DNA of 64,000 nucleotides, taken from positions 312,284 to 376,283 of the forward strand of contig JAJEKV010000094.1 in the NCBI GenBank assembly GCA_021234155.1. The letters are read 5' to 3'. The notes beneath the pieces are model-generated. The model was not told the origin of the DNA. It did not search any database and saw nothing but the letters and a program-made list of their open reading frames with translations. The position numbers were made by a program, and so were the translations under genes. This document shows positions 3,881 through 63,837 of this stretch, piece after piece (position 1 is the stretch's first letter; each line of letters begins with the position of its first letter). This DNA comes from Isoetes taiwanensis (lineage: Eukaryota > Streptophyta > Lycopodiopsida > Isoetales > Isoetaceae).

Positions 3881-3889
3881 AGGAAGGGT

Positions 3890-12853: not shown

Positions 12854-13616
12854 AAGTAAAGGAGCTTACAATGCAAAGAATACCAGGATGGGTTATAATG
12901 TAAACGTATCCAAGCATGTCCGGTCATGCCAGGGTATTACCGTTACATTCTCAAGCCTCCAAAACTGACCCTTTACAGCCTCTTGAAGAATTCCTTTTGG
13001 TGACCATAATTCAGAATAGTCCATAGCTTCCCAACGAAAAACTCTACCTGGCTTTTATCGATGTGCAAGACTGCTTATTCTGCGCCATAGCCCTTTGCAA
13101 AATCAAGCCTCCAGCTATTGTATCTGATGGGTTCCTTCTTACGCCAGACTTGTCCCAGGTTCCCATGAAAGAACGGCCTCCCCTAGACGGGACAGCGGGA
13201 CAGCCATGGCCCGATATTATCAGCCTAACCCTAAACGTGCCATTATCTTGGCCTTTGGATGCGATGCGATGGAGAACTTAGGCCGTCGATTAGGGCTAGG
13301 GTTTCATTCACGACATACAATATAACTTTATAATATAGGATAAGGATCAACTATATTTACCATGTCAAAAACCTATGCTCATTTATCATACTATCAAATT
13401 GTATAAATGAACCACCTTGCATAACTGTACACTTAACCATGTAAAACAATAATATTTGTTTATCATATTATAAGACCATATTACCAAACTATGTTGCATA
13501 ACCATACATGGTTTGTAAACTTTTTGGCCCATATACTAGTACTGATTTAAATGTTTGGCTTTCACTAACAAAGCATGGTTAAAAAGTCATACTGATTCAA
13601 TTTTGGGTGCCTTGTG

Positions 13617-14075
13617 TTTGTAGACAAGTCGTGGTGAGAAAAGTGATGGAAAACTTCACATTCTTGTGGGCGTGTTGCAGACCTTGTACTTCTTCCTGTA
13701 GCAGGAGAAGCTACAAATGGTGGGGGCAGTCTCCTTCGAAACACCTGTTGTGGTGCAGCATCTGCAGCTTCTGGTGATGGTATAAAAGGAGGTGGTAGCC
13801 TATTGTGTACAGGTGAAGATTGAATGAAGGGAGAAGGCAACCTACTTCTTAAAGGGCTCGGTGACGGTTGGAAAGGTGGTGGCAGTCTGTTGTGTGTTGG
13901 ACTTAGAGAATCGTCTAGAAGTGACAAAGATGTTGTTGAGGCAGGAGATGAGGAAGCCTGGACACCAGGCAAAAATACATGTTTATCAAGAATTTCCTCT
14001 GATGTAGAGGAACTAGGCACAAGAAAAGGTGGTGGAAGTCTGTTCTGGATGCAGTTAACCATCTTCAACAACGGG
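13617..14075 (-). pseudogene. Element A proline-rich gene (RLPPPF repeats), truncated
   Basis: The minus-strand frame carries at least five copies of a hexapeptide-like motif: NRLPPPF three times, SRLPSPF and RRLPPPF, separated by Ser/Pro/Ala-rich linkers. I do not know this protein. In element B the equivalent divergent gene begins with similar proline motifs (FTPP, LPPPIHF, RRLPP) and continues into a DUF7869-type domain, so this is probably the N-terminal exon of such a protein. Its downstream part is missing: the exon runs straight into the end of the inverted-repeat element at 13616. The open frame extends to 13565 within that element. No start codon can be fixed; an internal Met lies at about 14062. 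Confidence 0.5.
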
Positions 14076-14106
14076 AAATAGTAGAGAGAGGGACACAACT
14101 TCTGCA

Positions 14107-14740
14107 AGTTTGCTATTTGAGAATAAGAAGTGTCAACCCAAGGAGAAGACTGCTATTCCGGAATACACGTTAGCAGAAAGTTTGAACCACACGTTTTCGA
14201 TTTACATAGAATTAAGGAAGTGTCCATGAGTGACCTTTAAAAGGAAATTTTTTGGCGTTCAGTTGTGTATTCCGGATTCGACGCTCTAGCCGTTCGCATC
14301 CAGCGCATTCGAACTTCTTCTGCAGGAACTTATTCCGCTTTGCATAGCGCCAAGCATGGAGAGGTAAGGGGAAAAAGTACAATGTACGGGTTTGCAAAAG
14401 TGTTGTTTAGGTAGAAGCCAAAAGTGTATTCCGGAATACATTTTGGCCTTTTGTAAGTAGCCAAAATACACTTTGGCTACTATCGACAAGCCAAAGTGTA
14501 TTCCGAAATACACCTCGGCTTAACCTAAAAGCCAAGGTGTATTCCGGAATACACTTTGGCCTTTCAGTAGCTCTCTTTTCACTACAAAAAACGTAAATTT
14601 AGTGCAAATTTAGCTTTTCTTTTAGCTCAAACAGACTACGCTTTGTGTGTTTTAATCTAGATGTTTGTCATTTTTATTCCGGAATATACTTTTCTGTTTC
14701 TTTTCACTAGTTCTAATGTAGTTAGCCACTGTGATTTTGC
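14107..14740. promoter_or_regulatory. Element A divergent spacer with ATTCCGGAAT palindromes
   Basis: Between the two divergent genes, TGTATTCCGGAATACA or close variants occur near 14153, 14269, 14426, 14497, 14538 and 14675. Several are joined by CTTTGGC/GCCAAAG arms, so adjacent copies make longer inverted repeats. The same palindrome recurs in the introns of the ParB-methyltransferase gene (near 16122, 16181, 16468, 16527, 17236 and 17262) and is not seen in its exons. A shared bidirectional promoter and protein-binding sites are likely. Both roles are inferred. Confidence 0.7.
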
Positions 14741-15133
14741 AGGCAAGAACAGAGTGTCCCTAAGCCGAAGAGAACCATCAAGATCACTAGTAGAAAACCT
14801 GCATCGGAACAAGGACAGGAGACTGCTACGCCACAAATTTACGAGAATTTCCAAATGCAGTGGTTCGTTACACGAGGCTTCGCAGGAAAGTACAGCAACA
14901 TAACTTTCCTGTACGTTTGTCGAAGCTCAGAACAAAAAAGATATGATGACTCTGAGTTCGAGTGTATGGGCTCAATACAGCACATGGAACCTGTTGCTGG
15001 GTAGTTCAAGCAACAGGCAAAATTGTCCTTCCGGACATCACAAGGCTTCATCATCGTCAATGCAGCTTACTTCAAGTTGGTCAACGTGTAACCTCAATGA
15101 CTTTACAAGTACTGCGCCCACTACATAAACAAG

Positions 15134-16108
15134 TTGGCGTTGTCCACTATTCTTGGGATGGTTTCAAGCAGCAGAAGTGAAGCACTAGACTACAATGCTT
15201 CTGAAGATGAAGAAGGGCGTGGAGAAAGCAGTAGTGAATCTGGTGGTAAAGATGTCGACGCTGAGTTCGTGGAATCGGAACCTGAAGCATCACCACCACC
15301 ACCAAACAAGCAAAGACAGACTGTGACTGCTAAGGAGCCAAAAAAAAGAAAAATCGTGCAACTTGCAATAGAGAAAACACCTCAGGAATCTAGCAAAAAG
15401 GCAAAAGGAAAGGGCAAGCTCCCAGGAGTTGCAATAAAAGAAAAAAAAATTGACAAAACTGCAGAGAGAATGGAAGAAATAAACAAGCACAAATACGTGC
15501 AAGGTGTCATTTACCTTCCAGTCACATGCATGAAGTTGCCATCCAAGGACGAGACTGGAGAGAGGCCACTTCAAGTAAGAAAACTCCACGCTGACCACGT
15601 TAGAAACTTGAAGGACCGGATAAGGAGCAATTCAAATGCCCATGTTGCTCCAATAGTAGTGCTTACTGACAGGAATCAGTGCCTGCACCCGGCATATTAT
15701 GATAAAAAGTGTGTTGATCAGTACACGCACTATGTGCTGGGTGGAAACCACAGCTTCAAGGCACGCCAACAACTGTTTAAGGAGAAACAGAATTCTAGAT
15801 ACCTCTCTGTTCTCTGTGTGGTGTATTGCAGCCTGACTGACGAAGAGGCAAAGATAGTGGCCAATACATATAATGCTGATAACGAGTACAAACTCAAAAT
15901 GAGTTTTGTTAACAAAATAAGATTTATGCACAGAGAGTACTTAATTTTTAAGGAAAATTATGGTGAAGACCTTAAGAAACCTGCGCCATCTCTGGAGCTA
16001 AAGGAAGCGTGCGCAATAGAGTGCTGCCTCAAATATGATGAAGCAAATAAGAGGCACTCCTTAATCAGCCACGACAATTGGTTTCAACTCGCCTTCAGGG
16101 ATGGCAGG
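15134..16108 (+). CDS. Exon encoding the ParB-like domain (element A)
   Basis: The exon is open for about 325 codons. After an acidic, Ser-rich start come PPPPNKQ, the basic cluster KEPKKRKIVQ (like a monopartite nuclear signal) and a Lys-rich linker. The folded part starts near VQGVIYLPVTCMKL. It continues through RPLQVRKLHADHVRNLKDRI and HVAPIVVLTDR to YTHYVLGGNHSFKARQQLF. GGNHSFKAR matches the ParB/Srx-type signature G-x-H-R-x-x-A. A helical segment (MHREYLIFKENYGEDLKK) follows. The exon ends at a GTAAG donor after codons for DGR. Element B has the same blocks on the minus strand, for example VRVLQVRKLYAAHVAILKQR. Confidence 0.75.
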
Positions 16109-16771
16109 GTAAGAACTTTTGTATTCTGGAATAGCCCTTGCTCTTAAGTATTTTGTTTTTTCTTCATGGAAACTTAGTATTGTGTATTCCAGAATATAGT
16201 AAGCTGATTTTAACTTGTTTTGGTGCAGATTTGGGACTTGCAAAATGAAATTTTTACTGCATTTGAGCGCGAGGAACTAAAAAGCAAAGGGAAAGCCTCT
16301 GAAAAGAAAAAAGGCACAGACGTGTCAAAAAAGGAAATGACAATTACAGTTTGGAGAGAGCTGCAGGGCTTTACCGACACCGCCATACTTGAAAGAGTAC
16401 TCCCGAAGGTGGTGAATAAGGAGTTCACCTTCGAAGAGATGTCCAAAGGATTGCACAAGTAAGCTTAGTGTATTCCGGAATACGTTAATGTCTTCTGCTT
16501 GATTTTTTCGAATCTTCTAGCTCCAGTGTATTCCGGAATACGCAATGTGTTTATATGTTTTTTGTTAATTAGCCAAAAGAACGTTGCATGCCAGACATGC
16601 TTGATGGAACAACTGAATGTGAATCATGGGAAAGGTACAAGGAGCTCTACCCGGTGGCCACTTCAGATGAGCGTATCATACAATATGCTCCTAATTTTGA
16701 AGGTTGGGTATATTTTCTACTTTGTCGACTTTCGTTTTTTCTTCAGCTAATTGTCCATTAATTAACTTCAA

Positions 16772-17897
16772 ATGCATGTGCAAAACAAGGAAAAAAACAA
16801 AGACATTTCTGAAGGTTTCATGCACCTTCTGAAGCTTGTTCATGAGGAACGGACCTTGGCTGACAGGAGGCAATTAGCGATTGAACCTTCCGACTATAAG
16901 AAGTTTGCCTTGTTCGACCAAGACAATCTTTTTTCAATCATTCAAGGCGACTGTACTAAGTTGGTGGGAACTATCAAGCCCCAGAATTTTACCCTAGTTA
17001 TTGCGGACATACCTTATGGGTTCAAAATCAAGGACAGCCGTTATGACGACCTACCTTTCAGGAACTCCGAGTTCAATAGTTTTAAAGATGGTATAAAGCA
17101 GATAACAACGGCTAAACACCAGCGGTTGGTGGTGTTTCACTCCAGTATACAAGCAGGGATGGTCGAAACCAGCTTTAAAAATTATTTCGGATCCCCTGCT
17201 CAAGCAGGCTATGAGAATTTAGTTTGGTGAGTCTTTATTCTGGAATACACCTTCTTTCTAATGCTATTCTGGAATAGTAAACTTCTTTCTTAGTTGCTAG
17301 ATTGCTAACTACACTTCTCTTTCAAAGGTACAAAACAAATATAAATTACCATGCTGGAGGCCCCATGTTGTTAAGCAAGCCCGAGGTTGTTAAGCAAGGT
17401 AGAATACCCGCATGTTGCCTACTTGACCTTCGACGGCAAGAGGACAATGGAGCACTTCAACACTTCTGGATGCTCTGACTTTTCCAATGTCTTAGAGTTT
17501 CCAGCAATGTTGCAGAAGCTGCAGGACCCAAGCGCAGGGTAGAATCGTCAATCACTATCAGAAGCCCCAGAAGCTAATCAACCATCTTATTGACATGTTT
17601 TCACGTCAAGAAGACTGGATACTTGATGCTTTCTCGGGCTCTGGTATTACCATCGCCTGCGCACTTAAGAAGGGCCGCAACTGTGAGACAGTGGATATAG
17701 ATAAGGAGGTCGTGAACTTCATTAAGATGAGATTGGCTGCACTGCCTAGTTTACCAGACAAGAATCAAGAGCTAGGTGCCAAATCCTCATCTGATTTCGC
17801 CAAAATGACATCATCAAAAATACAACTGCCTTTTGCTAGCTCCACAGAGGACGAGGTCACTTTTGCTGAAGGATGTGGCTCTAGTAGTGGAAATTGA
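16772..17897 (+). pseudogene. DNA methyltransferase catalytic exons (element A)
   Basis: Motif IV comes first (VIADIPYGFKIKDSRYDD; DIPY is a variant of the DPPY/SPPY catalytic motif). RLVVFHSSIQAGMVE and, across an intron (17227-17327, GTGAGT...AAAG), WYKTNINYHAGGP follow. Then come LEFPAMLQKLQD, VNHYQKPQKLINHLIDMF and motif I, ILDAFSGSGITIACALKKGR (F-x-G-x-G, AdoMet binding), with VDIDKEV after it. The order IV before I fits beta-type N4-cytosine or N6-adenine enzymes acting on DNA. Two frameshifts lie between 17.39 and 17.55 kb. Which base is methylated cannot be told from the motif. Confidence 0.8.
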
Positions 17898-18029
17898 AGA
17901 CAACATCTAAAGCGTATATTAAATCACCTGAGCAGGAGAAGCCGGTTCAGGAGAACATTGCAACTACAAGCACACACCATGAGGAAGATTATGATATTGA
18001 TCTTTGACTCATTGTGTGAAACATTTTTC

Positions 18030-18385
18030 AGATTAAAATCTTCTAAAACTGATATTGAAAATTTAATTTATTATTATTTATTCCCATCAATTTTGGTATT
18101 TTTTAGGTCTTGCTTGTCTAGATTACACAGTCAACTGTAAAGTTTGCTCTTTTCAGCTAACAAGTGACAGAAAAGGAAACAATTAGGAATATTATGATTT
18201 TGAAGTTACACTTGTTGTCTGTAGCATTCTAGTGTTAACATTAACTTTGCCTTCAAAACTGATGTATTCAAAATTCAGATTAATGCTAACGTCATTAATT
18301 CTTTTAAACTAAGATGTTTCTGAGGTCTTCATTTCATGGATTGTATAGTCAGCTGTAAATTTCGTTCTTTTTAGCTGTGACATTA
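18030..18385 (+). repeat. Imperfect tandem duplication downstream of element A gene
   Basis: The stretch from TCTAAAACTGATATTG through AGTCAACTGTAAAG (about 18030-18165) is repeated in diverged form at about 18250-18385 (TTCAAAACTGATG through AGTCAGCTGTAAAT). No gene is seen here. Confidence 0.6.
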
Positions 18386-18527
18386 CATAGAACGAAAGTG
18401 TACACCTACTGGGAAGCTAAAATGCAAGAGAAAAAAAGTTTACCCTTACAAGATCCTTTACCTCGGCCAAAACGTTCACTTCTAGGAGCATGCCATGTTT
18501 TTTTAGGGCATCTTTGAAACGGAAGTT

Positions 18528-20480
18528 GTGCAACACTCCCGTTTCAAATGCAACCTTGTTCCCTCTATAAAATGCCTTTCCCTACATTTAAAAGGACACA
18601 ACAGAAACTGTTTCAGAATCACATCCGTAGACACTGGAATTTCTCTGCTAGACAGGTATTTCCTACACCTGCTTACTTCCAGATTTGACCCCGTTACCTA
18701 CATCGAGTACAATAAACAATATACTACTACATGTAGACCGTACATTGTCCTTAAGCCCACCGATCATCTAGAGCAGAAACCCGCAGGCGCAACCCAAAAC
18801 ATCATCCACGAGAGAACAAGAGGACAGTTAATCTGTAGAATACAACTACTAGTTTCAAAAGTTGGAGAGCCTTTCTACCTTAGACTCATCTTACTCCACA
18901 AAGCCGCATGATCTTAGAACAAACTCAATCCATGATGAAAAATAGTACGAAACATATCAGAAAACCGCCCAGGCTATGGGACTAATTGCACCAGCAACCA
19001 AAACCATAGCAGTAATGCAGCAGGCAATCTCATGCCTACAGACTCCATCACAACTATGATTCCTATCCGCGGTTCTAATACGAGATTCCGAACCAGCACT
19101 CCAACTATGGGAAACATTTCAAGACCAGATGATCGTTGACTTCGTACAACAATACCTAGAAAACCAATTAGCTGCCATCAATTAAAGCCTTCTCACCATC
19201 AACATCTTAAACGAGCATGGAACCAGCGCTGAAGCTTTTGGTCTGCCTTCACACAACATCCCATACAGAGAAATACAGAATGAACTCAGCAAATTCCCCG
19301 ACCATGAAGAGTATCTTACAAAGAGCTCAATTATGTTCGTGAACCAAAACCAGACCTCAATCTACACATATATATATATATGCAAACTTATCAACAACAA
19401 AAATTCTCCAGCCCCAATCTTCGTGTATGGAAAAGCCAGAACAGGAAAAATATACGTACTCAGTGCCATCTGTCTCTACGTACAAGGACTCAATCAAATA
19501 ATCTTACCACGCGCCACTATGGCATTAGCATCTCTACAGTACCTCGTCGGAAGAATTTCACACTCTCCTTTTCAAATACTCGTCATCGACAACAATATTG
19601 GAATCTATTCACTACTCGAACCACATTCTCCAAGGGCCCTATTGATCAGCACCGCAACGGCAATCATATAGGACGAATTTCCCATGCAAACAGAGCAGTC
19701 ATAAAGGCAGTTGATATCCTTCTACAAAACATAGCAGGCGTAGCCAGCCCCTTCGGAGGCAAGCTACTTATAGCAGCTGGTGATTTTAGACAGATCGCTC
19801 CCGTTGTCCAACGAGGAGGAAAAACAGCAATAATAAACTCATCTATCATCTCTTCCCACCTATGAAACCACTTCAAAATCCTAGAGCTTACTAAACCAGT
19901 AAGAAACGCAACTGATCTAGAACTCATACGATTCGTTGATGAAATCGGAGAGGGCCATCTACTCAATGACATTTTGCTAACACTATTCAAGATAACAACC
20001 AAAATAGGGGACACCGTCAACTTCTTATCTAACACATACATATTACTAACACCTATCCTATATGAGAGGAGAGCATTCCTATCTCCCAAGAACATCCCCG
20101 TCGACGACTTCAACATCGAAATCATATGAATGATTGCTTAGCAAACTATAGAAGCTACTTTAGCATCTACAGACTCACAAAAAAATGACCAAACCATCGA
20201 GGACCATCCAATGGCAATGATAAACTTCCTCAGCGGCTACAAACACCCAGTGCTTCCAAACATGAACTCCAATTAAAGACCAACACCGTATGCCACATCA
20301 CAAAAACATTGGACAAGGACAGAGGACTCATAAAAAACGCAAGGATCATGTATGCTCAATGCACACCAAATTCGTGACTGTCAAAGTTCTAACAGACCAA
20401 CTACGGCACGTGGGAAACATGCACCCCATATCCCGAGTTGACTTCTTCCACCAACCAGACAACTGGCCCTGGACAATTAT
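18528..20480 (+). pseudogene. Relic of Helitron helicase (Pif1-like)
   Basis: Successive frames rebuild a Helitron helicase. First is a pre-helicase block with VSKVGEPFYLRLILLHKAA (18.84-18.91 kb), then SEPALQLWETFQDQMIVDFV (19.1 kb) and EHGTSAEAFGLPSHNIPYRE. Walker A is IFVYGKARTGKIY (degenerate GxxGxGKT, 19.42 kb), followed by RISHSPFQI. Walker B is DEFPMQ (19.67 kb), then SPFGGKLLIAAGDFRQIAPV (19.75-19.81 kb) and NHFKILELTKPVRNATDLEL. Trp codons before DEFPM and NHFKIL are now TAG and TGA. The Rep domain and both termini were not found, so this is an internal fragment of an autonomous element. Confidence 0.85.
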
Positions 20481-20712
20481 ACTCTTAGATGTTTACTAAC
20501 CATATGGGACAAAGGATAGTTATAAGGCTTATGATTCCCACAAGAAAATATGATAGAAATATGCTTAAGCTGAAAAGCAAAGCTACTATCATTGTCATCA
20601 GCAAGCAGGAAACTAGCAAGTCCATCTTTCTTGAACGACATCTAATGCAGTGTGAAACCAGAGGGAAGAGAAGGAAGAACTCCAATCAAAATAACTTCAT
20701 TTGCAAAAACTA

Positions 20713-21000
20713 GAATTCGAGATAACTTGATCTAAGTGGTATTTAATTAAAAGTGGGACTCATTCCATTCCCATTTTTCGAAACCACGTTAATTTACACG
20801 AAAAGCACCGGCCGAAAACTATCCTTAATTGATTTTTGTCTAGAACTCTTGCATCCCGAGCTTTCCTCAGGTTTTCCCCGGATAGCGAGTCGAGAACAAA
20901 GAACAATGCAAAAGCAAAACAAAGGAAATTCATTAAAGATTGAAACCAAAGCTCTAGTTGAAAAAAAAATTTTATTAATAAATTGAATAGATACAATGTA
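20713..21000. other. No gene recognised
   Basis: AT-rich, with short open frames on both strands. It contains GCGAGTCGAGAA near 20886, a half-site of the element C palindromes, so element C may begin about here. Confidence 0.4.
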
Positions 21001-21561
21001 TTTTACATGGGGCCCAGGGGACCATGGCGATCTTCTTTGTCACTCTGATTACATCATCTTGGTAGGTGGTCCACCTTAGGGGATTAACTTTGCGGCGCCT
21101 TCTTCTGCCATTTGTAAGCCTTGGAGGCAACACGAAGAGTGTGGAATGCCTCACGATGGAGTGCCTCGCGGAACTCCCGTACGACCATCCACGGGCTTCT
21201 CCACTTTCGCCTCCATGACTTTTCATCGAATATGCTCCTTCCCCAACCTCAGTGGATATTATGCAATGCTTGCAAGATGCTTTTTGAGCTTCTGGGGCTG
21301 TCTCAAATTTCTTGGCGTGTTCTTTATCCCAGAGGGTGTGCATAACATCCCAATTCACGAAACAACCTTATTCAAAGGCCGGGCAAAGTGTAAACGTGGC
21401 GGGGATGCGATGCCGAGAACGGTATTTCTTACGCCTTGGCGGGGATCATCTGCTTTGGTGGTCTCACGAGATGCACGAGCGGGATACGTCTTTGGGTTAG
21501 GATCGTGCAGAACAACGCAAAGGAGAGTCTGATGATTAACAATTACGGTGCCATTAGTCAA
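20984..21561 (-). other. Uncharacterised minus-strand coding-like segment
   Basis: Two overlapping minus-strand frames (21358-20975 and 21561-21355) read as ordinary protein with a basic C-terminal part (NGRRRRRKVNPLRWTTYQDD). I do not recognise them. They lie downstream of the FCP1-like segment on the same strand and may be its last exons or a separate gene of element C. Confidence 0.3.
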
Positions 21562-21584
21562 AGCGAAGAAAAGAATGTTGAAAT

Positions 21585-21940
21585 CAAATTACAATGGAGA
21601 ACATTCATTCCATATAACTGCATCATCCAATGGCGTGGGAAGTAGTGTCTTTCTAGACTTCGCGAAGTCGAGAAAGGCGAAAAAAAGTTAAAATGCGACC
21701 ATTCTCATTAGAATATAAGTGCATCCAATCACACGGGAAGCATACAAATGGTTTAGATCCAGCGAGACAAGCGGTGCCTTTCTGTTCGCGTCGAGAAAAG
21801 GCCCAAAACAATGTACAACCATTATCATAATAGATTGTGGCTGCATCCGATCCTGACAAACAAACATACAAATGGTCTCATCAACGGGACAAGCATGCCT
21901 TTCTCGACTCGTTGGTCGAAATAAAAACTTCGATATACAA
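21585..21940 (+). repeat. Diverged 118-bp tandem repeat, three units
   Basis: Units start near 21585, 21692 and 21810. Each runs from a CATTCTCATTAG-like start through a GCATCCRATC core and ATACAAATGGT to TGCCTTTCTCGAC-like ends. Each unit ends with a form of the element C palindrome (for example GACTTCGCGAAGTCGAGAAA near 21658), degraded in the last two. Confidence 0.65.
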
Positions 21941-22039
21941 GTATATTCATTACAAAATGTAGTACATTTGTTCATGTTTGTTTAAATATTCACTGGTTGA
22001 CTATCGGCGGCCGGTCACTCTTCTTGATCACCAAAATAT

Positions 22040-22860
22040 TTGCCGTCCATAGCTTTCATCATGCTCTGCTCTGGATCCGGGTTCCGTGAGGCTCGGATAG
22101 TTTCTAATCACATCGGCGACAAGAATGGCAAAGCGGGATTCGCCAAGCGGACAAAGTCGAAAGACAACCACCTATCCATCTCATACTCTTGGTCGATATA
22201 CCTTAGCAAGGATTGTATTTTCAGTTATGATAACACTTGTAGGCGAGTCGTCTATGATCGGCGTGTTGTGTTTGCCATAGTCCGGGAATTGCTCATAAAC
22301 CCTGTCCAACCTTTTCACCATAATATGCTTCCCCTTTGTGATGGCTTGGATCGAGGTAAACACATGCTTTCGACCCTTTTGTTTCCCAAGCGAACTTGAA
22401 CTTCAAAGCTGGAAGGCCGAGAACACCAAGAACATTGACAATATTTTCTTTTGCCATACAAGACCATATGGCCGCCGAATCCCCATTCGGGCACCATTCA
22501 ACAATTTCCTTTGCTCTAGCCTCGGATACCGCGATTTTATGCTTTCCGTTTTTTTCGGGATCTGCGAGGTGTTAAGCTCGAGGGGCGTCTTTATCGTGGT
22601 ATCTTTGCAGCTAATACTCCATTGGCGTCAAATATTACAAAAGCTTGGCGGGACCATCGGATCCGGTTGGAGTTTGGCTCGACCATATTTCGGTTCATCC
22701 GGGATCCATATCGCGGGATCATTATTTTTTCAGGTCCTTTCTTGCTGCCCGCAGTGTCTTGCTCTTGATTGTCTTTGGGGTTTGCATTGTCCTCCTTGCG
22801 ACTAGATACTGTCAATGATCCGGAGTTGTTGGCATCGATCTCCCTGAAATGATGAGAGAT
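22040..22860 (-). pseudogene. FCP1/NIF-type (HAD) phosphatase-like domain, element C
   Basis: Read on the minus strand, SRQAFVIFDANGVLAAK (22.6 kb) matches the FCP1-family catalytic start (DLNGVL in many plant members). It is followed in another frame by RAKEIVEWCPN and AAIWSCMAKENIVNVLGVLG, then LKFKFAWETKG. A third frame gives VKRLDRVYEQFPDYGKHNT and IIDDSPTSVI. IDDSP is the second signature. Family members remove phosphate from phosphoproteins such as the RNA polymerase II tail. At least two frameshifts break it. It lies just 3' of the methyltransferase-like exon at 22971-23186, with an intron full of TCGAGA palindromes between, so both may be one fused gene. Confidence 0.7.
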
Positions 22861-22864
22861 GTCA

Positions 22865-22950
22865 GAAAGAAAACGAGTTTTCTCGACTCGCGAGTCGAGA
22901 ATGGAAAAAAGTTAGTCCCAAAAGGTTTCTCGACTCGCGAGTCGAGAAAC
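22865..22950 (+). repeat. Element C palindrome pair
   Basis: TTCTCGACTCGCGAGTCGAGAA occurs twice, near 22879 and 22928, in the presumed intron between the FCP1-like and methyltransferase-like exons. The same family recurs at 21.66, 36.1-36.6 and 39.8 kb. Confidence 0.85.
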
Positions 22951-22970
22951 ATCGAGAGAGAAAAGTGAAA

Positions 22971-23186
22971 TCACCTCAATCTCAGATTCTCAATAATGTG
23001 TTCGGTAGCATTCTGGTCTAAACCTTCGACATTCTCGTCTCCGTCAGGTTTCTCTCCCTCGCTCCCAGCTTTGTCTTCGTCATCGTCGTCCTTACTGCTT
23101 CCATTTGTCTTCCTCCCTTTGAAATGCTCATGAAGCAGATCCAGGTATGACCGAATGTAGGTTTCATTCCATAAAGCATAAACAAG
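22971..23186 (-). pseudogene. Element C methyltransferase-like gene, 3' half of split exon
   Basis: The minus-strand frame begins at the left inverted repeat of element B and reads LVYALWNETYIRSYLDLLHE, then HFKGRK and an acidic tail (KDDDDEDK). It is the continuation of the exon at 34587-34810, which ends QIVCEWYMNGLFSQGAMNK. Joined, the two resemble methyltransferase motif I and the acidic strand that follows it. The reading frame is kept across the 11.4 kb insertion. Confidence 0.55.
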
Positions 23187-23210
23187 GTTTAAAATGAAAC
23201 GCACTTATTT
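23187..23210 (+). repeat. Element B left terminal inverted repeat
   Basis: 24 bp, exactly the reverse complement of 34563-34586. Followed inward by AGAAGTGCGTTT, which pairs with the repeat's own AAACGCACTT. Confidence 0.8.
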
Positions 23211-23930
23211 AAGAAGTGCGTTTGAAAGATTCCTTTATAAAAATTGGAAACTTGAAAAAAATGGACAAAATAGGGAGCAAAATAGATTGTTGAGCAAATA
23301 GCATTCGAAATACCCCAAAAAAAGCAACATTTTTGAAGCCTTTTCATTTTTTAAAAGGGCAAAAAAAAAAAAGCTTGTTTTGAGGAGAAAGACATTACAT
23401 TTAAAAACTCATTAAGTATTTGTTGTTGAAAATAGAAGGAAATATAGTTTTGTGTTTTTGCAAGCTTAATATAAGTACTAAGAAAATCAAACATAGAAAA
23501 GAAAAAGAGTCTGAAAATCATGAATCAAAAAGAATTGTTCTAATTAAGCATTGTTGAAGAGAAAAAGTTTTTAGTTGAAATCTTCATCAAAATATATTAA
23601 AATTAAGTAACACATAGATTACAATGAAAGATAGTTTAAAATCTTTCTGCGTATAAATTTATCACGGAGGTGGCTCTTCCATCCACGGGGACTCTCTCTC
23701 CCCCCATAGATCGGTCTCTTTGCGAGGTTATAATAGCGAGACGCCCCTCGATTCCAATAGTGCAGTGCAGTGTTTCTCGGCTCGGGCACCACAGGCTCCA
23801 GATCGACGAACTCCACCTCCTCATTTCTTCTTCCGTATTAAGTGGAGGTTTGGATTTTGCAATATGTGCCTTTTACATCGCCGGCACCATTTTTGCTCCC
23901 AATTCCTCGTTTTCATCGGAAAGGATTCAC
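23211..23930. other. Element B left subterminal region, no gene
   Basis: A-rich, gene-free sequence, then short overlapping frames (23.62-23.95 kb) without a family match. It probably holds the 3' end of the element B methyltransferase gene. Confidence 0.4.
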
Positions 23931-24386
23931 AAGAGCTTATCCTGGTCCCGATGAAACTTATTTTGTCGGTCTATGTCGGACGGAACAACATTAAGCCCCT
24001 TAAAAGGCAAACTCTTCAATGGTGCACGAGCGCAGAAAATCGTCTAAGATCCAGTCCCTGTGGCGAAAACCATCATATCAAATTATTTATAAGTCGCTGT
24101 GGCTTCTGATAATGGGACACCACAGCGCCTTGTCGCTGTGGGTCTCTTAATTTTTGCAAAACCGCCGGGAACTGAAACGCATTGCAGGGAGGAGTCTTTT
24201 CATTCTGCGTATTAAAGTGAACCATGGTTTTTGGCGTCAAAAAACCCATGTGAAAGTGCTCGAAACAACTTACTAGCGCGGACCACCACCATGACCCTTA
24301 ACGTTTGTTTTAAGCACCCGCTAAACACAACAATGAAATATTAGTAAAATAAAAACAAGGAAAATAAGTTAGCTCAGTAGTGTGGC

Positions 24387-24545
24387 GGTATAAATTTATA
24401 CCAGGGTTGCCTTGCGGTATAAATTTATACCAGGGTTGCCTTGCGGTATAAATTTATACCGCGGCTGCAAACCGTATAAATTTATACAGACATTGCCTTG
24501 CTATATAAATTTAAACCTTAGGGTTGTGGTATAAATTTATACCGT
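24387..24545 (+). repeat. Element B palindromes, array 1 (intron)
   Basis: Six copies of GGTATAAATTTATACC or variants at about 29-bp spacing. The first three form a perfect 29-bp tandem unit with AGGGTTGCCTTGC. They lie in the presumed intron between the methyltransferase motif IV exon and the next exon. Confidence 0.9.
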
Positions 24546-25616
24546 GGAGTTACTAAAAAGAAAAGCGTTAAATGTTAAGCTTACCAAATGGGTTTTCAAA
24601 GCGGCATTACAGGCGACTCCCATAGGTTTAAGCAGGACATTGTTTGTAGGTCCGAATGGAAAATGATGACCCTCCGGTTAGCGGATAAGGTGACTTCCTT
24701 CGGGCCTTCAAAAAGAGTGGACTTGCGATGCGTGAAAACCTCCCCTCGTCAAAAGCGGCTGTCGCTTAATTTTGAAACCATAGGGAATATCGCAATGCAT
24801 AATGTGAAGTTCTGCTTCTCCAAAAAGTGTCCCCACCTCGTCTGGATCACCCTCAACAACTCTTGTTTTGCAGTTTGACCAAACGTTGTAAATCTTTCAT
24901 AAGAAGTGTCAAAGGCGCTGGTGGCGACCTCCTTTCCATTGGATTGCCTTAAGTCTCCGCCTCTTCCTTGGCCCTCACGAACCAGGGTTTAAAAAATCCA
25001 AATGGAGCCCTTTTTCTTGTTACGTAAGAATATTGTGAGAAAGGCACAAACCGCAGAGGAACATATTTTTAGCAAAACTTACCCGACCACTAAAGTTAAC
25101 GGCGTGCTCTCTAATAATACTATCGATTGGGTACAACTTGGGTAGAAGCTTGCACTCCTCCGTCCTCAAGGTTTAGCTTTGCTTCATTAACTTCGGCCTG
25201 GCGGGGTAACAATGTCTTCGGCTGCAAAGAGAAACATGTTGTAAGACCGAGAAAAATGTAGAAGAAAAGGCGGCATTGCAAATGTGGCTTCGTCTTAGCT
25301 TCCTTGGCCATTTTGGTCTAATGTAAATTCCTTGGCCCGCGACTTTTCCAAAGGCGAACAAAATTTCTTTGCTTTTTAATCCACAATCGCTGCGTCCGGG
25401 TACAATGCTCATATTTTTACTTTTAATTCTCCACCCTTTTTGGTTTTTCCTATAGCGGGCTGGCTTGCTCTTTAAACTCACCATCTTGAACATACAAAAA
25501 ATTCTTTCTTGAAGATCCCACACACTGTAAATGGACAAACGCCATTAGTTTAGTGTTGCTTAAGCGTAAGAGAATATGTTGCGATCTACTTTCTAAATGC
25601 GCTGGTGTGTAGTCCG

Positions 25617-25980
25617 CGGTATAAATTTATCGCCGTCCACGGACCTGGTATAAATTTATCTGCGACTGAATCGCGGTATAAATTTTTCTGCCGTGCCTGG
25701 TCGTGATATAAATTTATCCGTGCCCATTTCTGATATAAATTTATCACCGTGCCCTCCACCGGTATAAATTTATCGCTACGACTAGGCCGCGGTATAAATT
25801 TATACGCGACTAGGGAGCGGTATAAATTTATCGCGTCTTGGGGCCAAGATATAAATTTATCCCGCTGACTATTAGTCAGCGGTATAAATTTATCTGCGTT
25901 CCGGAACTGCGATAAAATTTATCACCGTCCCTAGTCGCTGCATATAAATTATCTTGTACCCACGGTATAAATTTATCACG
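25617..25980 (+). repeat. Element B palindromes, array 2 (intron)
   Basis: Thirteen copies of GGTATAAATTTATC or variants spaced about 25-35 bp, separated by unrelated GC-rich spacers. They fill the intron between the YGEDFKK exon and the VWDLQ exon. One more copy lies near 27031 in the next intron. Confidence 0.9.
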
Positions 25981-27551
25981 AAGTGCAAGGCACTTGTAAC
26001 CACGCTAAACATACTACAAAACATAGAAAAGAAGCGACTTCTTGCTTGACCATCTCGAATGCCGGTGAAAGTAGTTATCGTGTTGCTTTTCGCCATAATG
26101 GGCTTCTTATCATAGTCATAGGAGGCGACACTTTCATCGCACCTTGGGCTTCTCAGCTCCTGCGGCTTGTTCTTTTGCTTTTTAAAATCCTCTCCATACA
26201 TTTGTTTAAATTCCACGTACTCACGATTGCATGAAAGCGGATCTTGTCTATTAAACTCATTTTTAATCTGAAGTCATTGTCGAGATTATGACTCCGCGGA
26301 ATGACTTTTGCTTCTTCATCTGTTACACCAACGTATATATGTGCTTCTCACGCTCTTCCACGCCGTTCACGGCTTTCCTCTTTTTGCTAGTTCTTTCCTT
26401 GCCTTGTAACTATGTGTGCCTCCAAGAACGTGGTATGTGTAATCTTCAAGTCGACCTTCTTGTAATCTTTTAGTTGGTTGCACTGACTCCTGTCCACCAT
26501 AACAACTAGTGGCGACACATGGGCATGAGGATTTCTTCTCATTCTTTGTTTCAGTATAGCCACATGTGCCGCATACAGCTTCCGGACCTGTAGCACTCTG
26601 ACCCCATCTTCATTTTTAGGTGGCCTCTTAATGGTGCTCAATGTCAAAGAAATAGTTTGCTTTAGCAGTTTAGTGTCATTCACCCGCTTGAGAATAGCAC
26701 TTGATTTATCTGCAGGCTTCACAACAATATCTGCTCCGGGCCTTCTGAAGAGCTTCTGTTGACTCCTCTATAGTCAAAGCCTTTGTGCCTCTAGATTTCT
26801 TTTTTGTAGGAGCCTGTGTATCTACTACGAGGGAATGCTTTCTACCCTTTCCCTTTGTTACCACTGGTTCCTCTTCCTCTTCTTCTTCTACTTCCTCGTC
26901 CTTCTCTTCAAACTCTTCGATAGGAGTCGGGTACCAGAGACCTTTGACCAACTTTGTTTCTTCGCAAAGCACAACTGACATTAAAATGTCCACTATATCC
27001 TGTAATGCAGGGTTAAGTTAGGAAGATGACGGTATAAATTTATCGCGTAAAAGACACTAAACAATACTTACATGGCCACTCTTGTAATTGTCAGCCACGT
27101 ACTCTTGCACATCTTTGGGTTTGCACATGCTTATTCGAAGCATTTTACTTTCAAGAACGTAGAAGACTTCCCCCTTGTCATGCATGCACTTCATTAAGAT
27201 TTCATCATCGACCTCTGTAGCAATAAGGTTGACAATTTGTGGTGGGGTAATAATCGTCACTCTTGTACTTGCCCTTCCCGATTGATGACACAAGTAAAGG
27301 TGCGCCTCGATGGGTTTGCTCTCTCTTGCACCCATTTGGGCGTACCACATCCGGTTTCGGTTCGTATGTGCGTGGCTCTATTGGTGCGACCTTTGATGGT
27401 GGCCCTTGTTTACAAACGATCTTGGGGCTGGAAAAAGCATAAAGAGGCCATTTTTATGCAAGAAACAGAACCTTTTTCGACCTTTTGTACCATAAAAACA
27501 GTAAAAATAGAGGCGAAAAGAGCATAAAATCTACACTAAATTATCACTTTA

Positions 27552-30038
27552 CTAGTTACGGTGCCCAGCGTTGCTGGGCATAATTGGTAACCTGCAAATG
27601 TTGAAAACTTGCTCGGCATAATTTGGCAACTTGTAAATGTTGGAAACTTGCCTTGTTGGGAGCATATTTTATGTTGTCTTTAATTTGTGTCCCAACTTAT
27701 TTCTCGAGCTTATTCAACGAACATTTTTCACCTAACTATTTGCATGTCTTTTAATTCATTAGCAACATAAACATACTTATTAACACTACTTGATGCAATC
27801 GAAGGGCCCTTTGGGCATCTCCAAGTGTTTGTTTATTGGGTATCAACACTTAAAAACATCATCAAAGATGTTTCTTTGAAACAACTATTGTATATGCAAG
27901 GATGGTTTTTTTAACAACTATTTATATTTGTACATGCAATAACTATCTTTGACATCGTTTTTGCACAATATTCCATGTCATTCTAGCTTTGTTACATGAA
28001 CTTGGAGTCTCTCTTATAATGTTTGTTCTCCTAACAATTCAATATAGTGTCTATTTTCTACATATATTCCTATTAGGGGATTAACATTTTACAGTTGACA
28101 AAAATATGAATTACAAAAAATATGAATTACACTTCTGGCATAGGCCAATGCCGATAATAATTTTACTCTATGGAAAGACCTACTAATCTGCTTATTTTAT
28201 GGAGTGCATGTAGATCTAGACAAATACGTTGCAAGTTTAGCCCATAGTTTAGCCCATCTTTTTCTGTAACATGTCTATGCCTTGCAATTTTGTAAGCTTT
28301 ATACATGATACAACAAATTGACACTGCAAGGCACCTTTGGGTTAGTTCAAATCTCTGTTTCTTCATACATGCCCTCTCACATTGGGCAATGCCATTACAT
28401 GCCCTCTCACATTGGGCAATGCCATTGCAGAATATGACATATACCAGGGACATCTAGACAACTGTGTTTTGCTGCTATTGTAGAGGGTAAATACTGTAAG
28501 TGGGATTGAAACTCCTTATCCAATGAAGCTAAATATGTTAAAACGCTGGCAAAGCCTGACATGCTTCAATAAAAGGTATATGTTAGAAAGTGAACTTTTA
28601 TGCTATCTTACATGTTTGAATATAAGCTACGCAAACCAAATCCAAAGCAAATAAACAGATCCTTTTTTGAAACCAAAAGATTTTTTGCTTCATCAAAAAA
28701 CATGTCCCCTCCCATGCATGTTCTGAGGGAAGGCTGAACATGTGGCCAGTTTGAAGACTGTTGCAGAAATTCACAATCATATACCAGCAAATTCAATAAA
28801 AAAACAACTGATGCGAATTTTCCTAACCAGGCTTTGTGCACTTAAACTTCTTGAAAATGCATGGTCACCACCAGCTCCACAGTTGCGAGGGCTGGTCCCT
28901 GGCGTGCTCCCTGAAGATGTTGCACACTGCTCTAGAACTGGATCCAGCATATGGCCTCTTGTTTCTGAAACCAAGTCCTGGTTGGCAGTAGAAGAACTTG
29001 GTGACTCCACCTCTAATTCTGCTATGGAGCTAGCAGCATCTGAGCAGGTTGGAACACCTCCTGACTGAGTGGTACCTCGAGATGCCTTGGCTGTAAACAT
29101 GTACTTTATTCCTTAGTGTTTTAAACCTTATACTTCTGTCACATGTCAGAATATGAATTTTCCATTGGAAATTCACCTGATGCAGACATATATAGCAGGA
29201 TAATAGAATCCAGCGGAAGCTCTTCACAAGCAGTAGCTAAGACCTGTGAATGGAAAAGATATAATCCATCAAGAAATGGAAAGTAAAACAGCAAAGCATC
29301 TAACCAAAATAGGGTCTTACCAATAATAACCTCGGTATACTTGAACGATAGAGAATATGCTTTTCAGAATTTGGTGGCAAAGTGGGATCCTTTATTTCAT
29401 CGACAATGTTTGTTCTTTGAAGTGTCATTTCAGGCAAATAATTTTGAGCATTCTCTGGAGACTTTGAGCAGATAAAATCAGGATGCAGATAGCTAGAGCA
29501 GATAGTTGAAGATTTGCCCTTTTGCAACATAGATCTAGAGCAGGATGGACGGTTTCCAGATGCGATAGAGACTTCAGAGCTTGGATTTGGAAGCCGATGG
29601 CTTCTTACATTGTCACTGGTTAGTAAAAGGAAAATAGATGCCATCTAACCTTTGTAAAGAGGAAATAGGCTTGAGTGCTACAGCCGCAACCGGCATAGCT
29701 AAAGCGCGGGGACGCCCAACAAAACCCTGCACAGAAGAGGGGGGCTGAACCTGATGGGTTGGATCTGACCATCGGATTGCTACAGGCCATTCTTTGCTTT
29801 GGTGTTGTATGTCAAGCTCTATAGAATATCTTGCCAGAGATCCAACGACCTCTTCTGAGCCTTCGATTTTTAGGAGTTCCAGATGCATCTTGCTTGTAAC
29901 GCTCCCTTCAGCAGGGAGTTCTATTGCGGGCAAGCCCTAAAAATCCTGACCAGTCGAAATTACTAAGATGGATCCCAGCCATCCAATCTAGGGCTGGATC
30001 CAAATCCAGGAATTACAGCAAAACATTATAATATAAAA
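27552..30038 (-). mobile_element. Helitron H2 (non-autonomous, 2.49 kb)
   Basis: The 3' end on the minus strand is hairpin CCCAGCAACGCTGGG, CACCGTAA, CTAG, followed by host T. The 5' end is TTTTATATTATAATGTTTTG, a mutated form of the H3 start (TCC changed to TTT). Both H2 and H3 carry ATCCAGCCCTA within about 50 bp of this end. It lies in element B, just upstream of the ParB-methyltransferase gene. Interior open frames at 28.74-29.10 and 29.30-29.93 kb look like captured gene pieces. Confidence 0.82.
29300..29933 (-). other. Possible captured host exons inside H2
   Basis: Two minus-strand frames of ordinary protein composition abut in the Helitron. The upstream one includes LPAEGSVTSKMHLELLKIEG and SIELDIQHQSKEWPVAIRW. 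The downstream one is Ser-rich. I do not recognise the source gene. Confidence 0.3.
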
Positions 30039-30138
30039 TTTGTGTTATTTAGGCTTAAAACGCAAGAATATTACTGAAATATTAAGGTTTGCGACACTTC
30101 TTCAAGCACTAGACACCAAGATTCCAAAATGGTTCTGG

Positions 30139-31018
30139 ATCGGTATAAATTTATCTGCTGAGACGAAATGGTATAAATTTATCTGCGAACCATACGCTTC
30201 TGATCGGTATAAATTTATACCGCGGTGCTTTCGGCGGTATAAATTTATCTGGATGTTCGAGACACGCGATCGGTATAAATTTATCTGCAAGAATTTTCGG
30301 GTATAAATTATACCGATTGGTCTGGACCGGTATAAATTTATACCGCCGAGCACTGCTTGTTACTTTTATCCGATTCAGAGAATTATATCGGTATAAATTT
30401 ATATCGATCGCGTGTTCGAACAGGCGGTATAAATTTATCTCTGGCTGATTATGAAGCCCGGTATAAATTTATACCCATTCAGTAACCATATCGGTACTCA
30501 ATTTATACCGAAGCGTGGTGAACGCAGATAAATTTATACCGCTAGATTCGAGCGGTATAAATTTATACCGATCGAGAACCATATCGGTATAAATTTATAC
30601 CGCAGCCGCCACACTCCAGCGGGTGATTAAAACAAAAGAGAAACTAGAACAATGCGGGTAGTAGACTTCACGCGGCCATGACCCGATAGACCCGCTGCGT
30701 ATAGGCGTTCGCCCAGCAAATAGGGGGTATAAAGCGCCTGCTTGGCGCCGACTCCGGTGGAAATATATATAGAAATAGAGGTGGTGGGCGCTGGCTTAAG
30801 TACCTCTCGCTAAGTGCGCTTCATATAGCTTCTCCATAAAGTTTTCAATACAAGTGTCAATGCGTGAGTTTTAGGTATAAATTTATCTCCTTTCGTTCTA
30901 TGTTGCCCTCCTCAGTATAAATTTATACCATCTCAGGTATAAATTTATCTCTAATCTGCGCCTTAAGTTTTTCTTCCCTGTATAAATTTATACCAACTCT
31001 AATATAAATTTATCTTAC
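30139..31018. promoter_or_regulatory. Element B divergent spacer with 19 palindromes
   Basis: Fourteen copies of CGGTATAAATTTATACCG or half-degenerate forms lie in 30139-30604 at about 28-37 bp spacing, and five more in 30871-31017. The block sits between the methyltransferase gene (minus, left, beyond H2) and the proline-rich/DUF7869 gene (plus, starting near 31022). This is the same position as the ATTCCGGAAT palindromes of element A. Likely a bidirectional control region or transposase-binding array, by inference. Confidence 0.8.
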
Positions 31019-31021
31019 CGT

Positions 31022-33950
31022 ATGGCTCGAGAGAAAAGCTGCGAGCCTCCAACTCTTGTTCGCGGGGCTTCCTCTGCAATGGCTTTCACACCTCCTCAAC
31101 GGACACCGAGAAGTAGCCACGAATATTCTACATCCAGGCATTTCAACACCCACTCACGGTTGAGTTTACTCCGGCAAGACCACCTCGGCTTCCACCACCC
31201 GGTTCAATTTACTCCACCACACCACGCTCACGAGCGTCATGCGCCCCCACCAATGCGTTTCACCCCACCTCGGGCTAGAGAGGTCGGACTACCTCCTCCA
31301 ATTCATTTTAGTAACATTAAGCCCATAGTCCACCGTAGGCTCCCTCCCGCGGAGGCAAATCACACCAACTCCATCCATTTAAGCTAAATGGTACTACAAC
31401 AAATGGGGGCTTGATCGGCACCGAACTATCTGTGTTCTCACGACGCCCGGGGAGTCCAACTTCGTCCACCGGCCTCGATTACTTTTTCGAGAGAGAGGAA
31501 AGCACCTCCCCGGGCCTTGCCCACATCAAACCTCTCAAAGATCTACAAATTACACCTCATGTTGATCTCTCGGGGAAGAAACACCTCATGTTGATGTCTC
31601 CGGGGAGGGACCTACCAAAGCCACAAGACTCCATGTTGAATTCAAAGCCCCGCAAGTAAAAATCTTAAAGCGTAACTTACACAAGGCGGCATGTACAACC
31701 GTTAGAAGAAAGAAACTCATGGGCGAGGCTCACTTGCGGGCAACACATACAAAAGCACTTGTTGTTCTCAACGTTGTTTGCTTAAGATTGGACTAAAGGG
31801 AATTGAGGTTGCCGTTGATAGTTCTGAGTTCAATGACTCACCGCTAGACCAAAGGGGCTACTTAGCCTTCAATATTAGGCGGATGATGGTGAGAAGTTTA
31901 CTTACGGTGGTGGCCACACGTCACAATCAAAGCGGCCTTCAAATTGATTCATGCTTTAAGCGTGACGGCGACTTGACGCTGAAGAAAAGGCTTGACAAGA
32001 ATCCGGGCATCAATGACTCTTGCCATTCGGGAGGCATAACGAATTCATGCTCTTCAATGTGTTTCTGGATGGAAGGTTTCTTTAAGGAGTCTTGTGAGAA
32101 ACTCCCCTAACGACCCTATGTACCACTTGGTGACAATTTCCACGAAACAAGAAGTCTCGATAATTATAAGGAGATGTGTGTTGAAATTTGGAGAGCGGCT
32201 TTATGCCTTTACTCTTACTTTCACGTGCTTTCTGGAAAAAGAGTTTTCTCGTGTAGCCATTCCTAGAAAGCATAGGATGTCTGTTTGTGCTACATGCTCA
32301 CGAATTAAAAGCTTCGAGACAAAATGCAAGGACACTTCACACTAAAAGTAAGCTTCGGGGCGTGTTCTTGCCTAGTTCTACTTAAAGTAGGTTCTTTCTA
32401 AACATGTTTTCCTTTCCCGGATGCATTGAAGGAGAAACCCGAACAAAACCGCCTGAGAACAACAATCTTTGGAAAGGAGAAAATTGACAAAACATAGGAA
32501 AAAGAAAGACTTTGGAACAACCACTCAACTACATATCGGTTGTTATTGATGGAATGGACCGAAGAAGACCACCCTACCACATTTTGTCAATGTGCCTAAG
32601 GATCTTTCTTGAAGAAGATTTCATACATCGCATGTTGTTGGTGCTATGGTATTTAATGGAAAACTATCTTGCAAGGCATTTTTTTGAATTATCAAACATT
32701 CATCTTTGATCCAAATCTCACTATCACAATATTGAATAAGCTTCTTTCCAATCTAGAACATATCTGCCCGGGTTACGTATCTTCGACTAGATAACCACGA
32801 CAAGGGGAAAATAAGAATCGGCGTTGTTTGCTTACTTGTGCTATGCTAGTAGAAACAAATCTTCAAGAAGGTGAAGATTGGTTTCTGCTTGTTGGTCATA
32901 CACCGCGACCAAATTGATCGGATGTTGATGGGTTCTCTAAGCGTCTTGCTTTCGAAAAAAAAAAGCTCTAAGCACCTTACCCATGATTGAGGTCATCAAG
33001 ATTCCTACAATCCCTCGTCCGGACATCGAGTTATTGGAAGAAACTTATGATTTCAAGGAATGGATTTTTGAAAAAGAGATCAACTAGGTCAACGTGCTAT
33101 TGAGCCCTTGAGAAAACATTACATTCCAAAGCTCGAGATCAAAATTTCACTTGTAGATGGCAAGGCCATCTTACAAGGAAAGAAATATGCCACATCCTTG
33201 CGATGGCGACCCGGCACAGTATTCAATTCATTACCAACATCCCCAATACTAGTTCCATGCTCTCTGCCCAGAGCAAATGCCTCTAAAAAGCTTGAAAGAA
33301 ATCACAAAGAGTAAAAAAGGAGGGAAGAGCATTTGACTCAAATAAATCATTGGATTGTATTGAGACAAGTATTCATCTGCTCTAACCACTTTGGGGGCCC
33401 GGATGCTTTATGGTGGCCTCAATTTTTTTTCGACAGCGTGACATGTTGCAAGCTTCATTAAAGGTCGAAGACCGGTTATATTCAGCGGCCATCTAGGCAA
33501 ACCCTCCTCAGCAAGTTGAGAATCAAGAGGAACATGTAGAGATATTGGCTAGCTTCAGGATGAAGATGACGAGAGTCATGTACACCGGCCCTAGGCATAC
33601 AAAGACAACAAGTTGCTTTCGAGTATCACGGTTCAGTTCCTCGAGATTGAAAAAGGAATGCTCATAGTTGTCCCAAATGATAATGATGAATCTGGGAGGC
33701 CATTACGCTAGCTAAAAATCTTGGAGGTAACAAGAGAGGATGGAATTCCCACTCAATTAAAAGTGCACTGGATGAGAACGACTGCTGCCAATGCTTTCAG
33801 TGGGAGTTATACTTTGGAGATGGTAAAAACAGGAGTGGGAAAGAGAGCAAAGTCCAAAGCAAAAATCTGGCTGTCATAGATCTATCCTGAAGTGAAGGTT
33901 CTTGCATATGACTTTGTTCATTTCTGTACGCTAATAAGTTACGTATGGTC
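31022..33950 (+). pseudogene. Element B proline-rich + DUF7869-type (transposase-like) gene
   Basis: The first segment (31022-31387) repeats FTPP, MRFTPPR and LPPPIHF and matches the RLPPPF gene of element A in style. Blocks of the DUF7869-type protein follow: IPRKHRMSVCATCSRIKSFE (32.26 kb), NYISVVIDGMD (32.52 kb), FELSNIHL, KVKIGF then (frameshifted) LLVGHT and DQIDRM (32.87-32.93 kb). After those come ETYDFKEWIF, ISLVDGKAILQGKKYATSLR (33.15 kb), and FLEIEKGMLIVVPNDNDESG (33.65 kb) with LKVHWMRTTAANAF. The gene at 45.7-51.7 kb has the same order (IIHDKMDQ, GFMMVGHTHDDID, EGYFVLVRPDDEDRP). DUF7869 proteins are thought to be transposase-derived. Multiple frameshifts and stops make it inactive. 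Confidence 0.72.
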
Positions 33951-34562: not shown

Positions 34563-34586
34563 AAATAAGTGCGTTTCATTTTAAAC
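34563..34586 (-). repeat. Element B right terminal inverted repeat
   Basis: 24 bp, exactly the reverse complement of 23187-23210. A second GAAACGCACTT lies inward in direct orientation. Confidence 0.8.
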
Positions 34587-63796: not shown

Positions 63797-63837
63797 CAAA
63801 AGAGGAAAGATAATTAAGGTGCAATGATAGAGAAAGA

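Follow-up and report, generated by a model that had tools for sequence, protein, structure and literature searches.

Among described systems, the nearest functional parallel to the elements considered here is that of the VANC proteins and VANDAL transposons of Arabidopsis. According to the two papers concerned, VANDAL elements carry short motifs in introns and in intergenic and terminal non-coding DNA, and the coding probes tested were devoid of the motif; the motifs, often arranged in tandem, vary from one related family to another, and VANC, for which binding and demethylation were shown experimentally, acts in trans, even on an unrelated element (PMC5735166; PMC10398659). We analyzed a stretch of 64,000 nucleotides from the genome of Isoetes taiwanensis (contig JAJEKV010000094.1, positions 312,284 to 376,283 of the forward strand; hereafter, the window), in which two transposons, elements A and B, each bear two divergent genes and arrays of short palindromes. 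Like the VANDAL motifs, those of the Isoetes elements are short, family-specific, non-coding, and often tandem. They differ in being palindromic; moreover, the candidate protein is a putative ParB-like protein with an N6/N4 methylase domain, the other gene is of the DUF7869 type, the target-site duplication (TSD) is 4 bp long, and the Isoetes system is predicted from sequence. Since neither a VANC nor a Mutator-like element (MULE) protein was present in the scanned frames, the Isoetes elements are not VANDALs; by analogy, their system may work likewise. A protein of similar composition, Bce_0392 of Bacillus cereus, is described as a bacterial ParB–methylase fusion (PMC5512222). It unites a ParB/Srx-type domain and an adenine methylase in one protein, a combination also proposed for the Isoetes protein; the Isoetes gene, in contrast, contains introns, is located in a plant transposon, encodes an additional N-terminal domain, and is accompanied by clade-specific palindrome arrays.

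In the sample analyzed, the palindromes were clade-specific and were located in arrays in the spacer and introns, not in mapped exons, and exact copies of their sequences numbered in the thousands genome-wide. We assign a probability of roughly 0.5 to the reading that they are cis-acting recognition sites of a transposon-encoded protein with two-fold symmetry, the putative binder most likely being the ParB-like/methylase protein. Two-fold symmetric sites of such information content suggest a dimeric binder, and their restriction to the elements of one clade suggests that it is encoded by the element.

The A palindrome, TGTATTCCGGAATACA, was found at 11 sites of the window at up to three mismatches (two of them exact; 0.34 expected; a maximum of 2 in 100 shuffles serving as a control). 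All of them were located between 14152 and 17249: six in the divergent spacer, five in introns 1, 2, and 4 of the methylase gene, and none in exons, the borders of which were read from the sequence. At the same threshold, the B palindrome, GGTATAAATTTATACC, had 35 sites (0.47 expected for the whole window; shuffle maximum of 3), 34 of which were inside element B, from 23650 to 30994, and the remaining one at 9435. Sixteen sites of element B were in the spacer, one in the intron preceding the ParB-like exon, ten in intron 1, and six in the intron that leads up to the last methylase exons; one more (23650) was past the last mapped exon, and mapped exons contained none. A preliminary description of this DNA had reported about 13 A and 39 B palindromes; the arrays are real, while the numbers at up to three mismatches are 11 and, within element B, 34. 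Its location of the sites in the divergent spacer and methylase introns, with none in mapped exons, is correct for both elements of the window, as is the absence of cross-use: there were no B sites in element A, no A sites in element B, and none of the foreign type inside the fetched copies.

The same description regarded each palindrome as private to its element copy, which is wrong, because the palindromes are common to clades and abundant in the genome: among 1,658,258,908 bases in 1110 contigs, exact copies numbered 3392 for A, 7218 for B, and 1551 for a third type, D (14-base core), with none for the reversed controls. Related loci (designated L with a number) were fetched as a non-random sample, selected by score, open frame, and profile range. 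They comprised 20 A relatives from 115 non-window places scored (at least 3966 first-look candidates), 8 B relatives from 149 scored places (at least 2058 candidates), and 5 DUF7869 loci from 150 places (at least 9902 candidates), with a profile range picked to avoid A and B. The latter five represented three D elements (L037–L039), one B element (L041), and one locus (L040) with neither palindromes nor a recognizable ParB-like gene.

A sites occurred in all 20 A relatives (4 to 16 in each, at up to two mismatches), and no B sites were found within these elements; the eight and two B-type sites of L013 and L027, respectively, were all outside the A element, beyond its right end. B sites were present in eight of eight B copies (9 to 34 in each) and in the ninth, L041 (14 sites at up to three mismatches), none of which had A sites. 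Copies devoid of sites were not seen among these relatives, 20 of 20 A and nine of nine B elements having them, and the sample thus did not refute the reading given in the preliminary description. Of the 180 A sites of the 20 copies, 88 were located in introns and 80 in the spacer; none was found in the mapped exons (37,820 bases) or leftward (72,040 bases). Another 12 had other labels: 11 were 'right/other', including 5 in L009 and L028, two copies with no later exons identified, and 6 in a neighboring element by L021, and the only one labeled 'N-term exon' belonged to L017, a rearranged copy in which the label reflects the offset only. In 10 B elements, including that of the window, 201 B sites were counted. 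Introns contained 83 of them and the 1.3 kb preceding the gene another 103; 11 were still farther upstream, all in the window element with its long spacer, 4 were past the last mapped exon, and the mapped exons (18,317 bases) had none. The single site at 27031–27046 had a counterpart by place in all eight B copies. The third clade contained TGTCTATGCGCGCATAGGCA-type palindromes (8, 11, and 7 sites in L037–L039, respectively) in the spacer and, as judged by eye, also in the introns of L038 and L039, in runs at 40–42-bp spacing, compared with 42/41 bp in A and mostly 28–32 bp in B. Strict helical phasing was rejected as a general rule: 42/41 bp corresponds to four turns in A, but the spacing in B introns is 28–29 bp.

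The location in the divergent spacer would also suit promoter-type elements serving both genes, and B contains TATAAAT on both strands. We consider this function very improbable, since the A and D palindromes are not TATA-like, which rules out the TATA-box reading, and intron sites are about as many as spacer sites.

A tree of the ParB-like cores included 32 rows (21 of A, 9 of B, and 2 of D; the core of L037 was too poor and was left out). A well-supported branch separated each of A, B, and D from the rest, and the palindrome type coincided with the clade in 32 of 32 rows; therefore, it needs two changes on the tree, the fewest possible. The groups were named after the best-matching core, so the tree shuffles show clustering of the cores only; the bootstrap was not quite settled, and D was represented by two rows, one of them on a long branch. 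In the sample, the proposal that the palindrome type tracks the ParB-like clade was borne out by three clades with three palindromes and no exception among the rows. Eight more palindrome places were taken from the genome lists and compared with palindromes masked; six of them (five of five A and one of three B) were similar to fetched elements of the right clade.

The half-sites GTATTCC (A), GTATAAA (B), and CTATGCG (D) have TAT in common at positions −6 to −4, while the bases at −3 to −1 vary (TCC, AAA, and GCG, respectively); the chance of such a shared run in three random half-sites is about 0.002, in a register comparison made after the sites were known. Information in the logos of A1 and A2, two subclades of A, and of B falls beyond a core of 12–16 bp. 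In four of five arrays tested, conservation was higher in palindrome columns than in linkers, i.e., in A1 intron 1 (0.963 vs. 0.910), A2 intron 2 (0.863 vs. 0.640), B intron 1 (0.902 vs. 0.600), and B spacer (0.904 vs. 0.678), although the test is biased upward in these four because the sites were picked by motif likeness. The main intron array occupies intron 1 in A1, intron 2 in A2, and intron 1 together with a later intron in B. The common TAT register, the information drop, the conservation of palindromes, and the differing introns all argue against selfish tandem amplification alone, in which slippage and copying between spacer and introns would produce the arrays with no bound protein, and clade specificity would be a matter of inheritance.

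We regard such an origin as quite improbable, although several features of the arrays are in its favor. Within copies, spacer and intron linkers were 0.39–0.64 alike vs. 0.28–0.30 for random stretches (P ≤ 0.05 in 16 of 18 copies), and units aligned between copies, palindromes included, at roughly 71–86% (the spacer of one copy vs. the introns of others). The arrays vary in number and place, and the A1 spacer palindromes were no more conserved than their linkers (0.883 vs. 0.872, P = 0.446). The within-copy likeness may reflect either copying of units within an element or a recognized site longer than 16 bases. The self-spread of intron-borne sites, mentioned as a possibility in the preliminary description, thereby gains modest support, while a longer recognition site would look alike.

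Regarding the proteins, the left gene carries Pfam DUF7869, as found in L012 and L024 (E = 4.5e-32 in L024). The right gene encodes an N-terminal domain of no recognized kind, a possibly ParB-like core, and an N6_N4_Mtase domain (PF01555, 7.1e-17). Among solved structures, the nearest to the methylase was CcrM (3.9e-9), with a match spanning the spliced methylase region of L012, followed by MboIIA (4.1e-7) and RsrI (3.5e-6); by its sequence, the enzyme is of the beta class, CcrM-like N6/N4 type. The catalytic tetrad of such methylases is usually DPPY or SPPY; it reads DIPY in element A, L012, and L034, and activity of the enzyme is therefore putative. With a methylase of this class encoded in the same gene, the palindromes may be its substrate sites, bearing a symmetric adenine or N4-cytosine self mark. 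This possibility overlaps with binding by the same protein, so the odds do not sum to one; we consider it rather unlikely, as 12–16 informative bases are long for a methylase site and the tetrad deviates from DPPY. Methylation at the sites, one of the suggestions in the preliminary description, thus gained no support.

The assignment of the core as possibly ParB-like is based on weak profile matches: DUF6551 (best 8.6e-4; 13 of 15 members at E ≤ 1), NCBIfam ICE_PFGI_1_parB (best 1.9e-4; three of five members), and the PHROG ParB-like profile (best 1.4e-3; two of five). The GGTHSFKAR motif matched sulfiredoxin chains with E of about 2, ranking lower than two chance-like matches at 0.09–0.1. This core motif, GGNHSFKAR or GGTHSFKAR, occurs in A, B, D, and fern proteins and resembles GGCHR of sulfiredoxin, with Ser where Arg would be expected. 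A protein search with A exon 1 alone gave no match, while a profile of the A, B, and D cores retrieved three Adiantum fern proteins, in two of which the joint of exons 1 and 2 (AFRDG/AFRDR followed by the WDLQ stretch) is read through; this supports the gene model and indicates that the protein family is present outside the I. taiwanensis genome. Only DUF7869, N6_N4_Mtase, and Cons_hypoth95 (another methylase profile) gave Pfam matches above the cut-off in the element frames scanned; ParA and helix-turn-helix domains were not among these matches, and no search was aimed at either. Bacterial parS sites have a known consensus and a length of about 16 bp, and the possibly ParB-like domain together with palindromic sites of about 16 bp constitutes a likeness to the ParB–parS system. 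The window, compared with the parS consensus, contained no parS-like array: the only match at up to four mismatches (three mismatches) was at 15774, inside an exon. No paper mentioning DUF7869 was found in the literature searched, and none of the titles or abstract openings listed for ParB with transposons, eukaryotes, or methylases describes such an element; subscription papers were outside both searches.

Judging by their structure, the owners of the palindromes are DNA transposons with two divergent genes, terminal inverted repeats (TIRs), and TSDs of fixed length. Fuller A-like copies align over about 8 kb and have TIRs like AACAAG(A/G)TTGCATTTGAAACGGGAG; a 4-bp TSD was seen by eye in L012, L014, L010, L016, and element B of the window, other copies being unclear, truncated, or one-ended. 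Element B is an 11.4-kb insertion, since an inverted repeat bounds it and the same 4 bp flank it on both sides. No relative of these elements was found among viral contigs. In CACTA (En/Spm) transposons, TnpA has subterminal repeats, and the TSD is 3 bp long. The likeness lies in repeated binding motifs for an element-encoded protein, which in Isoetes is predicted only; in contrast to the subterminal motifs and 3-bp TSD of CACTA, the Isoetes motifs are in the spacer and introns, the TSD is 4 bp, and the termini are AACAAG.

The binder could also be the DUF7869 protein, a putative transposase, in which case the palindromes would be needed for transposition and would not be sites of the methylase protein. 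Its gene borders the same spacer, and two shortened ends (L021:8942–9450 and L045:460–967, one end seen in each) consist of a TIR followed by an array within about 400 bases, with no gene between, as mobile derivatives must keep transposase sites. We judge this unlikely, because about 3.6 kb separate the left TIR of L012 from its first array site, arrays are also present in the introns of the other gene, and the left TIR region of L012 and its relatives contains repeats, TTGAAACGGGAG, which are better candidates for transposase sites. The AAACGG part of these repeats is identical to the Ac transposase motif. With arrays in its own introns and separate repeats at the TIRs, the methylase gene is a better candidate for encoding the binder than the DUF7869 gene.

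Apart from the late choice of the TAT register, the bias of the conservation test, the A1 spacer, and the candidacy of the DUF7869 protein, several observations weigh against recognition by the ParB-like/methylase protein. The tracking of clades by palindromes is also expected from plain inheritance. Two of the additional B places matched other DNA only: L047 matched sequence adjacent to the A elements in L013 and L027, and L048 matched L040. In many A sites, the central CpG is decaying, so that they are unprotected in old copies; CpG transitions are the commonest change in decayed A sites, as expected if old copies are methylated with 5-methylcytosine (5mC). Profiles unrelated to ParB scored equally with the core (IgA0_D2, 5.6e-4, in five of five ParB-like exons; yfcE, 1e-3), Pfam ParBc was not matched by the element frames, in which respect they also differ from the ParB–parS system, and structure prediction of the ParB-like exon, made with the two window copies alone, reached a predicted local distance difference test (pLDDT) score of only 33.

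If the palindromes are nevertheless recognition sites of the ParB-like/methylase protein, a dimer of each clade's protein would load on its own arrays, in cis as well as in trans on gene-less copies. The loaded protein would then mark or open the array DNA, the obvious candidate activity being that of the fused CcrM-like domain in methylating adenine, and the marking would let the genes of the family escape host silencing, own copies alone being recognized; an effect of the arrays on silencing is suggested by analogy only. The arrays would grow via tandem duplication of the unit and perhaps also via copying between spacer and introns, and specificity would shift through changes at the inner three half-site positions, with TAT at −6 to −4 retained. 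More tentatively, the whole may be a self/non-self address system: the ParB-like and adenine methylase protein would read the palindrome of its own clade and put a non-5mC mark on its own copies, and new clades would arise when the protein and the three inner bases change together. If recognition by the element's own protein holds, family-specific motif arrays of the VANC type arose a second time, in a seedless plant, on an unrelated protein possibly methylating DNA. Three natural pairs of protein and site in one genome would then make the evolution of DNA recognition testable, with a constant TAT and a changing inner triplet, and would point to where real N6-methyladenine or N4-methylcytosine in plants might be sought.

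Features of elements A and B in the window (positions are those of the window; L012 is a relative of element A).
Feature	Position	Strand	Evidence
Element A copy, left part missing	13617..18560	+	alignment to relatives begins at ~13617; right TIR CTCCCGTTTCAAATGCAACCTTGTT at 18536-18560
A divergent DUF7869-type gene, N-terminal part	13616..14071	-	76% to N-terminal frame of L012 gene
Six A palindromes, divergent spacer	14152..14688	.	pattern match
A N-terminal domain and putative ParB-like exon	14738..16108	+	77.5% to L012 in one frame; open frame broken between 15002 and 15100
Two A palindromes, intron 1	16120..16198	.	pattern match
Two A palindromes, intron 2	16469..16542	.	pattern match
A methylase exon with DIPYGF motif (motif IV position)	16766..17227	+	16802-17227 84.5% to L012
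A palindrome, intron 4	17234..17249	.	pattern match
A last methylase exons; N6_N4_Mtase domain 17496-17894	17329..17894	+	PF01555 E=1.9e-13
Element B, both ends present, TIRs of ~30 bp, TSD CATA	23181..34592	-	33-nt inverted repeat, 94% complementary; CATA flanks on each side
B decayed N-domain, putative ParB-like, and methylase exons	23822..27359	-	tblastn
Six B palindromes, ~29-bp spacing, intron before last methylase exons	24387..24543	.	pattern match
Ten B palindromes, mostly near 29-bp spacing, intron 1	25618..25979	.	pattern match
Single B palindrome, intron before ParB-like exon	27031..27046	.	pattern match
Sixteen B palindromes, divergent spacer	30142..30994	.	pattern match
B decayed divergent DUF7869-type gene	31022..33852	+	tblastn, L012 pieces as queries, lowest E 4e-17

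In many sites of element B in the window, the right half is changed to the ATC type, as in GGTATAAATTTATCTG; such sites were found in both introns and the spacer, from 24387 to 30994, and the GGTATAAATTTATCTG variant occurred 916 times genome-wide. It may represent an emerging subclade code.

The preliminary description had also named a third case, element C, which was not supported as such. C-type palindromes, in which TTCTCGACT and AGTCGAGAA enclose a variable centre, are indeed present at 21652–22952 (21652, 22880, and 22927), about 36150–36620, and 39783–39847, being few and scattered over two regions. The exact string given earlier had no matches in the window, and a gene of the A/B kind was not found: tblastn with the L012 genes revealed no ParB-like/methylase gene near the C palindromes, and the two regions had no mutual protein similarity at E ≤ 0.01.

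Another, diverged remnant of a DUF7869 gene was located at 46838–51185 (1.3e-29 at 47191–47613), with no ParB-like gene beside it according to tblastn with the L012 genes. A PIF1-type helicase remnant, probably of a Helitron, was found at 19186–20126 (6.2e-11 for 19186–19668). Frames at 7081–8162 and 63008–63883 resembled, by eye, the reverse transcriptase and endonuclease of long interspersed nuclear elements (LINEs). A long repeat with purine strand bias occupied 1578–3690, with a GC skew of 0.74 and an AT skew of 0.72 in 2001–4000.

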